Shown here: piece after piece, positions 15,590 to 19,959 of the stretch
Layout: each line of letters opens with the position of its first letter
How positions within the stretch are numbered: position 1 is the stretch's first letter
Source of the DNA: a virus
IMG/VR virus record: IMGVR_UViG_3300044846_000194
Span: 1-35,294 of that record
Direction: 5' to 3' (one strand)
DNA length: 35,294 nt
Program-made: the position numbers and the translations under genes
Notes under the pieces: generated by a model
Seen by the model: only the letters and a program-made list of their open reading frames with translations
Databases searched by the model: none
What the model was told of the DNA's origin: nothing

Positions 15590-16287
15590 ATTACTTGTTT
15601 GATTTTAAGGCCTCCAATTTGTTTGATGCACACATCATCTTTGATCCTGCTTTCTACCTTTTCCCTGATAAATTCATTTACCTCATCAATGATGTCAATC
15701 AATGTGTCCATGTCTGTGTCCTTATTAATGTCAATCATGACATCCAGGCCAGCATGAATAAAATTTCCTATCAACTTTTGCTGTGTCATATCCTCTTTTC
15801 TTAGTGCTTTTGAAAGTTTCTTTTTAACCTTCGTTACAGTTTTAAATAGGGATCTGTAGGGGATTTGCGTGTCTCTGCTTAGTTTTAAAATGTTCTTTCC
15901 ATTCTCAGCATAGTTTTCAAATATGTTTTTTTCATACCAGTGCAACTCACCCATTGACTTTTTCAGCTTGCTGTCCATTTCCTCATGCACATCTGACTGG
16001 TCATCTGCCCTCTCATAGTTGTCACAATACTCACCAAATGACTTTCTGAACATGTTGAAAAATGTAGATCGGTCACTCTTTGCCATGTTCAACATTGTCC
16101 TGACTATGAAATATTTTAGATAGCCACTAGTCCACATGCCACACAACCGTTCTGAATCCATCTCACACAATACCAGGAAAATTTCCTGTCTTAGATCATC
16201 CTGTAATTCTACAGGCTGCATCTTACTGATGGCCTGGTTGATGTCCTTATCCTGGTACATCTGTGTGATTATGGTATCTTTTTTCAT
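15586..16287 (-). CDS. Sigma-factor-like transcription regulator (candidate late activator)
   Basis: 233 aa from ATG 16287, which overlaps the VRR-NUC stop as ATGA; an upstream ATG at 16305 is possible. The region near 27-60 (LQDDLRQEIFLVLCEM, then GYLKYFIVRTMLNMAKSD) resembles sigma-70 region 2 (helices with a DLxQEx motif and a promoter-melting-like basic/aromatic helix). The region near 130-165 (NILKLSRDTQIPYRSLFKTV) resembles a region 4 HTH. No region 1 or 3 is evident. It lies at the end of the replication genes and ahead of morphogenesis genes, where a middle-to-late switch is expected. I infer that it redirects host RNA polymerase to late promoters. Confidence 0.65.
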   Translation of the reverse strand: MKKDTIITQMYQDKDINQAISKMQPVELQDDLRQEIFLVLCEMDSERLCGMWTSGYLKYFIVRTMLNMAKSDRSTFFNMFRKSFGEYCDNYERADDQSDVHEEMDSKLKKSMGELHWYEKNIFENYAENGKNILKLSRDTQIPYRSLFKTVTKVKKKLSKALRKEDMTQQKLIGNFIHAGLDVMIDINKDTDMDTLIDIIDEVNEFIREKVESRIKDDVCIKQIGGLKIKQVI

Positions 16288-16604
16288 AGGGTTGGGTTTG
16301 TCCATTCTTTGATGCACACCAGTCCATTTTCCTCTGTAGCAATCAGGCATTGGCATCCTGATGTTTTTGCTCTGTTCATGAAATTGATTTGATCCTGGCT
16401 CATTCTGTCATTGATTGTTTTGACCTCACAATAAACAGCTACACCAGTAAATTTGTGGAATCCTATGATGTCAGGTACACCTTTCAGGCCTGTGAATGTT
16501 CTGCCTCTCACAGCTAGATTGTTCTGCCTCCATACAAAGCACATCCTGGTTTCCAGGATCTTCATGGCAGTGGTTGTGATATGTGATACTGTCAATTCTT
16601 TCAT
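16284..16604 (-). CDS. VRR-NUC family nuclease
   Basis: 106 aa from ATG 16604; a TTG at 16643 would add 13 residues. It is a minimal PD-(D/E)xK nuclease of the VRR-NUC type. GVPDIIGF gives the catalytic Asp, and YCEVKT gives the Glu and Lys about 17 residues later. A QINFMNR helix and a GCQCLIA strand follow. VRR-NUC proteins cut branched DNA, and phage versions act as Holliday-junction or flap nucleases in replication and packaging. It overlaps the sigma-like gene by 4 bp. Confidence 0.82.
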   Translation of the reverse strand: MKELTVSHITTTAMKILETRMCFVWRQNNLAVRGRTFTGLKGVPDIIGFHKFTGVAVYCEVKTINDRMSQDQINFMNRAKTSGCQCLIATEENGLVCIKEWTNPTL

Positions 16605-16652
16605 AGGATATTCCAAATATGTTTCTATGTTCTGATAGTACAAAATATTTTA

Positions 16653-17276
16653 CTAACTTTTTTTTGCTGATTCCTGCATGTAGCTTTTCATGGCATTTCT
16701 GAACTGTTCTTTTTCACTGGTGACATCATCACTAGATCTGTTTTGATCACCACTAGATTTGAATTGTGCATTTTGTTCATCCTTAAATCTTACATACTGC
16801 CTATGCCTTTCATCCCTGTAATTTTCCAGCATTTCAAAAAATGTAGGGATGTCCATACGGTCATAGACTTTGCCATACTTTGCTTTGATCATACCATCCA
16901 GGAATAGCATGATGTCCTCAAATGCCAGCTGATCCTCATTGGCTGAATCAATCAGCTGTAGTGACAATTCCATCACCTGATCTGCATTCATGCCTACCCT
17001 CAGGTTGAAATTTGACAAAGCCTTATTAATTGCTTTAGCTAGTATGGCAGATACTTTGTCCATGCCGTATGTAGTTACCAGGCCAGGCAGCCTGTCCTTT
17101 ACTGGGATCTGTTGGATCACCATCATAGGCAGTGGCTCTCCCTTATCTTTCCACCTGCACATCTCATTGAACACCTGTCCTGTGCTACCTACTGCCAAAG
17201 CGTTTAGCAAATGCCTCGTGTAGTTGTTGGTCTGTGATATGGCTAGATCTTGCCTGGTTTGTTTTTGTAGTTGCAT
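16653..17276 (-). CDS. Helicase-loader-like replication protein
   Basis: 207 aa, helical, no Walker motifs. It has a conserved-looking core (DRLPGLVTTYGMDKVSAIL, then LSLQLIDSANEDQLAFEDI, then LDGMIKAKYGKVYDRMDIP, then FFEMLENYRDERHRQY) and a polar tail. The FLDGMIKAKYGK.YDRMD pattern is one I know from a Bacteroidota phage replication family (DUF6633-like), found after initiator genes. A helicase-loading or primase-recruiting role is inferred. The start at 17276 overlaps the initiator gene by 92 bp, which is unusually long. A later start near 17162 would remove the overlap but lose conserved-looking N-terminal sequence. Confidence 0.55.
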   Translation of the reverse strand: MQLQKQTRQDLAISQTNNYTRHLLNALAVGSTGQVFNEMCRWKDKGEPLPMMVIQQIPVKDRLPGLVTTYGMDKVSAILAKAINKALSNFNLRVGMNADQVMELSLQLIDSANEDQLAFEDIMLFLDGMIKAKYGKVYDRMDIPTFFEMLENYRDERHRQYVRFKDEQNAQFKSSGDQNRSSDDVTSEKEQFRNAMKSYMQESAKKS

Positions 17277-17913
17277 TGTTTTCAGTTTTTAATTCAAAAA
17301 ATCCTTTCCATCCTTTTGCCATTGATTGCATGATGATATTCATGGCAGTGTCCTCATGGCCACCTGACAGTTTCACCAGTTCATTCAAACTGGCTTGCTC
17401 TGATCCAGCTGACTTAAACTTGAATTTGTGATCCTGGGATTTGTAGTCTTTCCAGGTTGCCCAATAGTTTATGAATTTTGCAGATGTCCAGGGCATTGTG
17501 ATCTCAACTTTTGGCTTTGCCTTTTTTTCATTTTTACTTTCATCTTTATTTTCATTTTCATTTTCATTTTCATTTTCCATATGTGGTGACATATGTTTTT
17601 CATATGTAGATGATATGATGGTCTTTTTACTAATTCTGTTAGCTTTTCGGCTATCAGTGAAGTTTTTGCGTTTGTTGATCTCATCTTCAACCCTTTGATT
17701 GAAGTACAAACCATTGTCATCTTTTTTGAATTTTGCGAAAATGTCCGCATCATATGTTTTGCATATGTGCATCATATGTTTTTCACTTAGTCTGCCATGT
17801 AGGTGTTGCATACATAGCAACCTGATATACTTTCCAACTTGCTCATCAGACATGAAAGCCACACCTGTGATAAAGTCACTGGAATAAAATAGGAATGCTG
17901 GATCTTTTGCCAT
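17185..17913 (-). CDS. Replication initiator-like protein (DUF1376 type) containing the candidate origin
   Basis: 242 aa. The N-terminal domain (DPAFLFYSSDFITGVAFMSD, then GKYIRLLCMQHLHGRLSE) matches the DUF1376/YdaU-type winged-helix domain of phage replisome organisers. A low-complexity charged linker follows (NENENENENKDESKNEKKAK, about 110-135). The C-terminal domain (TMPWTSAKFINYWATWKDYK) resembles the second domain of such proteins. Six CATATGT heptamers in two triplets lie within the codons for the winged-helix end and linker, a lambda-O-like arrangement of origin inside initiator gene. It is expressed from a promoter at about 18.03 kb through a structured leader with a terminator just before the start codon. 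Confidence 0.7.
   Translation of the reverse strand: MAKDPAFLFYSSDFITGVAFMSDEQVGKYIRLLCMQHLHGRLSEKHMMHICKTYDADIFAKFKKDDNGLYFNQRVEDEINKRKNFTDSRKANRISKKTIISSTYEKHMSPHMENENENENENKDESKNEKKAKPKVEITMPWTSAKFINYWATWKDYKSQDHKFKFKSAGSEQASLNELVKLSGGHEDTAMNIIMQSMAKGWKGFFELKTENNATTKTNQARSSHITDQQLHEAFAKRFGSR
17549..17779. other. Candidate replication origin: phased CATATGT repeats and TTTTCA tract
   Basis: On the + strand CATATGT starts at 17578, 17590, 17601, 17751, 17762 and 17773. Within each triplet the copies are 11 or 12 bp apart, about one helical turn, so they face the same side of DNA. The flanks share TTTTT or TTTTG after three copies. Four perfect TTTTCA repeats (17549-17572) border the first triplet and give an AT-rich asymmetric tract suited to unwinding. 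All are inside the initiator gene. Elsewhere in the window I noticed CATATG only as isolated singles. Confidence 0.55.
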
Positions 17914-18890: not shown

Positions 18891-19328
18891 TTATTTAGGG
18901 ATTTGAATTTTGAATGTTGATGTGCTGGTTTTGATCGGCAAATCACCTTTGTGATATGTCCTTTCATGATCCTCAATAGCTTTCTGCTTTTCCTTTAGTT
19001 CTGCAATCTGCTGATCCAGTTCTGACCACCCAGGCAGATGGCTGTAGTCATATTTGATGCTGGTCATTTCTGACACCTGCACCCCATTGATCTCAGCTTT
19101 CATCTTTGGGTGCTTTCCCAGTTCATCCATCACATCACTGCTGATTTTCTCTTTGACCATCTTAGTCAATGTCTCCATTGCATTCAGTCTGATCACAGCA
19201 TCCAGTGGATTGATGTAGCCCTCTTTCACCTGTTCTGCAATGGCCTCAGCCATCAGATCCAGGCCAAATTTGGTAGGGGCAATTTCCCCTACCTTAATGT
19301 CATCAAGATTAATTTTTTCTAATTGCAT
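18891..19328 (-). CDS. ERF-associated protein of unknown function
   Basis: 145 aa from ATG 19328, chosen because it overlaps the ERF stop by only 20 bp and gives a sensible start (MQLEKINLDDIKVGEIAPTK); longer frames intrude into ERF. Helical, with a central SSDVMDELGKHPKMKAEING block and a coiled-coil segment (SELDQQIAELKEKQKAIEDH). No nuclease or helicase motif seen. Its location between ERF and SSB-like genes suggests a role in annealing or recombination (Gp157-like proteins occupy similar sites in other phages, but I see no clear match). Confidence 0.6.
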   Translation of the reverse strand: MQLEKINLDDIKVGEIAPTKFGLDLMAEAIAEQVKEGYINPLDAVIRLNAMETLTKMVKEKISSDVMDELGKHPKMKAEINGVQVSEMTSIKYDYSHLPGWSELDQQIAELKEKQKAIEDHERTYHKGDLPIKTSTSTFKIQIPK

Positions 19329-19959
19329 CTTTTTTAGTTGTAAAGTGTGATTTAAGATTGTTGTCCTCAACCAGTTTAGCATTGACATGATACAGTGTGT
19401 TCAGCTGTCCAATGCTCTCACAGCTGTCCAGCACCATCAACAAGTCATCAGCTGTGGTATATGTTTTCCTGGCCAACAGATCAACCTCAGATGGCTGTGG
19501 CTCGGCCTTTGGTTTGACCTCATGTGTGTCATACTCAGTGTCCAGCTTTTCCTCTGTAGGGATCAGAAACATTTGCATCAGTGCATACTTTAATGCAGTG
19601 GACATGGCTTTGTTTGTAGACTTATCACCGCTGTCCATAGCCTCACCCTCCAGGACAGATTCAATGAATGATCCATCAGTGGTGAAAAATTTAAACTGGC
19701 ATTTGGCAATGGTGTAGATCAGCACACCACCTTTGGCTGTCTGCCTTTCCTCTCTCTTAGATTCCAGGACATTGCTGGTGATGAATACTGCATTTTTTTT
19801 GAACAGTGGCTGCAAAGCATTGTACATGTCATCAATACCTCTGAATAAATAGCCCTGTGCTTGATTCTTTTTGTTTTTACCAATGGCCTCAATTTCCTGC
19901 ATGATTGCATTGATGGCCATGTAAATGTTGTTTTGTGTCATTGCTTTAGTTGTTTTCAT
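19309..19959 (-). CDS. erf: ERF-family single-strand annealing recombinase
   Basis: 216 aa, the size of P22 Erf-type proteins. The core shows AINAIMQEIEAIGKNKKNQ, the YLFRGIDDMYNALQPLF block (residues about 37-55) and the diagnostic GEAMDSGDKSTNKAMSTALK stretch (about 105-124) followed by YALMQMFLIPT. The C-terminal part (about 145-216) is a helical, variable domain (ADDLLMVLDSCESIGQLNTL). It would anneal complementary strands for phage recombination and genome circularisation. It overlaps the upstream 66-aa gene by 14 bp and the next gene by 20 bp. Confidence 0.88.
   Translation of the reverse strand: MKTTKAMTQNNIYMAINAIMQEIEAIGKNKKNQAQGYLFRGIDDMYNALQPLFKKNAVFITSNVLESKREERQTAKGGVLIYTIAKCQFKFFTTDGSFIESVLEGEAMDSGDKSTNKAMSTALKYALMQMFLIPTEEKLDTEYDTHEVKPKAEPQPSEVDLLARKTYTTADDLLMVLDSCESIGQLNTLYHVNAKLVEDNNLKSHFTTKKDAIRKN

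Follow-up and report, generated by a model that had tools for sequence, protein, structure and literature searches.

Intragenic replication origins as such are already known, namely from lambda O, SPP1 gene 38 and pSK41 rep. In phage lambda the gene that follows O (P) loads the helicase, and the iterons have a length of about 19–20 bp. Four iterons, each of which is an inverted repeat, form one array; both this array and an AT-rich tract are found within gene O, which encodes the initiator, in the middle of the coding sequence (PMC7466680). Gene 38 of SPP1 harbors oriL, with direct repeats and an AT-rich unwinding element inside the initiator gene, and a loader and a DnaB-type helicase belong to the system (PMC6316719). 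The origin of pSK41 is placed centrally within rep, a gene of the RepA_N type; the N-terminal winged helix-turn-helix (HTH) domain reads the Rep boxes, and the C-terminal domain of Rep contacts the replisome (DnaG) (PMC5703833).

The window, i.e., the whole stretch of DNA that was analyzed, is a complete virus record of 35,294 bases. A sequence-only reading had proposed that six CATATGT heptamers inside one of its genes form an iteron origin, which is read by the product of the same gene. As in lambda, the repeats and an A+T-rich tract reside within the initiator gene; in contrast to lambda, the window gene has cores of 6–7 bp every 11–12 bp, arranged in two clusters, the first of which lies in HTH codons. 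Repeats and an A-rich tract within the initiator gene are also shared with the SPP1 gp38-gp39-gp40 system, and the G39P loader family of SPP1 was matched by 3 of 103 downstream genes of relatives. SPP1 has a second origin, oriR, at a distance of 13 kb, whereas a 7-mer scan of the window found no second array. The similarity to pSK41 rep consists of centrally placed repeats, and possibly of the predicted winged-helix-like N-domain and the proposed replisome contact of the C-domain, while the phage setting and the presence of two clusters are different. Neither the O family of Pfam nor the RepA_N domain was matched by any of 118 family members. By analogy, the element would work like the origins of lambda, SPP1 and pSK41, and it is not placed in the O or RepA_N families.

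The initiator gene and its neighborhood

The initiator gene (17185–17913, minus strand, 242 aa) was delimited as an open reading frame and characterized with profile searches and structure models. DUF1376 (PF07120) is a family of unknown function. It matched the window protein with an E-value of 0.0034 and 18.2 bits, which is below the Pfam gathering cut-off of 30.1 bits, and it was matched by 48 of the 118 relatives at E≤0.001. The replication initiation profile phrog_678 (O-like) matched with E=1.4e-6, over aa 76–230 only. Most family members matched PHROGs named primosomal protein, replication initiation or O-like (phrog_9327 in 80/118), and the generic "replisome organizer" PHROG was matched by 5/118. 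Annotated phage records yielded only four matches, all of them partial. The gene had been called a DUF1376-like initiator; gene context and the replication PHROGs spoke for the initiator function, while the DUF1376 assignment stayed under the cut-off.

The models predicted a winged-helix-like N-domain and a helical C-domain, which are separate and joined by a disordered linker. The N-domain (residues 1–98, codons at 17620–17913, minus strand) is the proposed reader of the repeats, and it was modeled confidently by AlphaFold (pLDDT 90), while the linker that holds the A-rich tract had low confidence. The fold matches of the N-domain were weak yet consistent, and comprised the winged helices of ORC2, MarR, ArsR, IclR and Z-alpha (best Z 5.3). 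The plasmid-type initiator structures 4pt7 and 4pql were found with Z 3.2–3.4, among many other winged helices. Structures of lambda O and DnaD were absent from the fold-search matches, which excludes neither, and a sequence search of solved structures with the initiator protein gave no convincing match. The C-domain (residues 139–239, codons at 17197–17499, minus strand) is the proposed replisome contact, and relatives carry unrelated C-domains. The 3′-ends of the initiator gene in L015, L016 and L065 encode near-identical C-terminal ends (EPANRDQARIDYWNHMVDTFGTDEEKATRKI) and the N-domains differ, which suggests from the sequences that C-terminal domains of relatives were recently exchanged.

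The next gene (16653–17276, minus strand) overlaps the initiator gene and has the position of lambda P and SPP1 gene 39. Its function is putative: nothing beyond DUF6633 was matched, it is not a recognized helicase or loader, and it was not retained as a candidate helicase loader. DUF6633 was also found in 13/103 downstream genes of relatives; others encode DnaB helicase domains (22/103) or IstB/DnaA-type ATPases. An ERF-type single-strand annealing recombinase (19309–19959, minus strand; PF04404, E=7e-20) is encoded upstream of the initiator gene, and a VRR-NUC/Holliday-junction-resolvase-like gene (16284–16643, minus strand) is situated shortly downstream. The change of the GC skew that had been predicted near 17.6 kb was absent; nearly all genes are co-oriented, which can mask a switch, and the skew was dropped as origin evidence.

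Phased heptamers and the adjoining A-rich tract

The positions and spacings of the heptamers were verified. On the plus strand, the CATATGT sites start at 17578, 17590 and 17601 (cluster B, 17578–17607, steps of 12 and 11 bp) and at 17751, 17762 and 17773 (cluster A, 17751–17779, steps of 11 bp), and the distance between the triplets is 150 bp (17601 to 17751). Since the initiator is encoded by the minus strand, each site appears as ACATATG in the coding direction, and all three frames are used. Cluster A coincides with the codons of residues 45–55, which belong to the helix 44–51 and the turn of the predicted HTH, and cluster B lies in linker codons. Cluster B is continued by a fourth, degenerate copy (GATATG, 17612–17617) 11 bp past the last full one; GATATG was also met as a repeat variant in relatives.

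The rest of the window contains one CATATGT (20671) and four more isolated CATATG cores, in agreement with the sequence-only reading. The total of 11 CATATG is not raised in comparison to the expected 18.8; the raw count was dropped as evidence, and the clustering is the unusual part. CATATG is rarer than expected in the window, six of the 11 fall into the two clusters, and the core may be avoided outside of them. A motif-free scan of the 35 kb for any 7-mer that occurs three times with 10–12 bp steps revealed exactly two places, i.e., clusters A and B, while triplets of the same layout had a mean and a maximum of 0 in 60 sequences of a Markov null. Codon-preserving shuffles kept all six sites in only 32 of 20000 cases when shuffled within the gene (0.16%) and in 8 of 20000 with the codon usage of the phage (0.04%).

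An A+T-rich element with fixed codons is present beside the repeats. This tract (17525–17577; GAAAAT in gene sense, TTTTCA on the plus strand) codes for ENENENEN, was detected by TRF as an array of 8.8 copies, and is the proposed unwinding element. Its TTTTCA part (17549–17577) had been described as touching the first triplet, and it does abut the first cluster B site at 17578. The tract is among the most easily melted places of the window, yet it is not the easiest. About 20 of the 85 genes in the unbiased sets of relatives carry a G-rich element, GGGG(N1–8)GGGG, typically AAAGGGGGTGTGGGGGAAAA, on the coding strand after the GAAAAT tract, 30–58 nt past the tract start and in three frames (L084:4403–4415, and matching places in L085, L087, L101, L104, L109, L115, L138–L141, and L143). 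Synonymous shuffles contained it in 2.8 genes on average (maximum 7), and none were found on the reverse strand. It may be a G-quadruplex, a primosome element or a recombination element, and it was not seen in the window gene.

Conservation and covariation of the repeats in relatives

The first set of relatives was biased, as it had been found via the patterns EKHMMHIC and HMENENEN. Because these patterns overlap the clusters, relatives were re-collected with residues 1–41 only (alignment A1) for the phasing and covariation tests. The unbiased sets comprised 66 loci from genomes of bacteria, for the most part Bacteroidota and Clostridia, and 80 viral loci that were kept out of at least 572 confirmed candidates. 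The statistics were based on 74 genes with a recognizable tract, from which near-duplicates had been removed.

In these 74 genes the self-match of the DNA peaked at 11 and 22 bp in clusters A and B, above the level of codon-preserving shuffles, while no peak was found in the first 105 nt and in the region after the tract. Codon structure alone cannot yield a peak at 11 bp, because 11 is not a multiple of three. A phased-repeat score of at least 7 was reached by 82% of the B regions and 47% of the A regions; among control windows the share was 0% for N-terminal and 5.7% for C-terminal ones. A clear repeat in cluster A was missing from about half of the relatives. For B, the favored step was 11 bp (42 genes) or 12 bp (19 genes). 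Relatives retained the heptamers and their spacing, or they had another phased repeat at the same places, often common to both clusters. Such alternative repeats were ATACCAAA (L085), ATACCACGGTA (L098), GCCGTGGCA (L100), GATAACCCAAAA (L109), GGTCATATGACA (L135), AGCGACCCTTGAA (L133), AAGCTATGCTT (L123, L128), ATACGAACGTA (L174, L188) and ACAATCGTATA (L155). These lineages encode quite different peptides, yet they keep the layout of 11–12 bp. Over the whole family, hundreds of related phages would share this layout with an altered signal.

Clusters A and B matched one another better within a gene than between genes (13.6 versus 9.6; 0 of 5000 permutations). The same was true for genes without CATATG (12.0 versus 8.4; 0/5000), and for 25 genes without ATATG-type sites in a GC-stratified permutation (12.96 versus 8.56; 0/5000), while control region pairs had little or no within-gene excess. 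Among 45 strong A/B matches, 20 shared the reading frame, 15 differed in frame, and 10 involved opposite strands. In L109, for example, 25 identical bases are read as IKITQKITQ in A and as KDNPKDNPN in B. The likeness across frames and strands indicated that it does not stem from protein selection, and that one DNA-binding activity would read both clusters.

Codon usage was compared at sites with identical residues in the first, pattern-found set, in relatives with 45–85% protein identity; the codon identity was 0.996 for ACA in ACATATG sites versus 0.506 elsewhere, and 1.000 for CAT versus 0.680. In the E-N tract, which was delimited from the protein sequence for this count, the codon shares across relatives were 0.98 for GAA versus 0.756 elsewhere in the same genes, and 0.993 for AAT versus 0.646. 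All of these codon figures are descriptive, since related sequences are not independent. Furthermore, the similarity of the B repeats tracked that of the N-domain once the C-domain was accounted for (r 0.233, 1/1000), and hardly the reverse (0.074, 47/1000). This signal was located in residues 59–88 and not in 4–39, and the nearness of residues 59–88 to cluster B may contribute to it. Judged from these sequence comparisons, the repeats are almost certainly DNA sites that are read by a cognate protein, and part of the sequence of the initiator protein appears to be dictated by a DNA element.

Proposed origin, rival explanations and implications

Considering the observed repeats, their phasing, their conservation at the DNA level, the A/B covariation and the gene context, the two triplets, together with the GAAAAT tract beside them, are probably an iteron replication origin inside the initiator gene. 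A DNA-binding domain, iterons, an A-rich tract, an exchangeable C-domain and a gene for a helicase or loader are laid out as in the known intragenic origins. The product of the initiator gene would bind one CATATGT repeat per turn of the helix via its N-terminal winged-helix domain, and a nucleoprotein complex would be assembled on clusters A and B. The complex would then open the neighboring A-rich tract, and the replicative helicase would be recruited via the C-terminal domain and probably the product of the next gene. The sequence-only reading had named similar clusters in codon-preserving shuffles, or relatives that keep the protein and lose the phased heptamers, as results against an iteron origin; the shuffles rarely gave such clusters, and relatives had the phased heptamers or another phased repeat in their place, so that neither test refuted the reading.

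It is unlikely that the repeats are instead an operator, at which the initiator protein or another phage regulator controls transcription while replication starts elsewhere. A single DNA-binding activity on A and B would account equally for phasing, codon freezing and covariation; however, both clusters are inside the gene, at about 130 and 310 bp, rather than at a promoter, and the A-rich tract with its fixed codons always follows B. In addition, the family and its neighbors are replication genes, and the window is devoid of any other array that could serve as origin. The chances are smaller still for another cis element, be it a site for partition or packaging, or a hot spot of recombination at which the exchange of C-terminal domains is aided. 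C-domains have clearly been swapped among relatives, and the G-rich element is often present after the tract; but no partition genes were seen beside the gene, with one ParB_N match in 103 downstream genes, and the repeat type follows the N-domain of the same protein, which would be needless for such sites.

It is extremely improbable that the repeats are a by-product of a peptide that is kept for protein function and is itself repetitive, with HM/TY units and the E-N linker. Synonymous shuffles did retain part of the 11-bp signal, which is carried by the peptide itself. Against this stand the matches in which A and B share the same DNA while frame or strand differs, the frozen site codons where residues are identical, and the lineages with other peptides and an unchanged layout; the frame and strand test ruled this explanation out.

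The location of cluster A in HTH codons might have the consequence that a change of the repeat type simultaneously alters the reader, and a new origin specificity (compatibility type) could possibly be generated when one short block recombines. It is tempting to speculate that the approximately ten or more repeat types of the family, often common to both clusters, are a record of such joint changes of reader and signal. The two separate clusters, the short cores per helical turn, the location of one cluster inside HTH codons, and the large number of repeat types, with joint changes of both clusters, are new here. The origin had been called undescribed, and this holds for the literature that could be searched, in which no paper was found that links DUF1376 to an origin.

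Taken together, the analysis offers a probable origin and a probable mechanism for a large phage gene family of unknown function, mostly from Bacteroidota and Clostridia, and the HMENENENEN peptide signature is explained as a disguised DNA sequence. The many natural pairs of initiators and repeats could reveal how initiators read DNA and how origin specificities arise, and the compact origin might serve replicating vectors for Bacteroidota and Clostridia.
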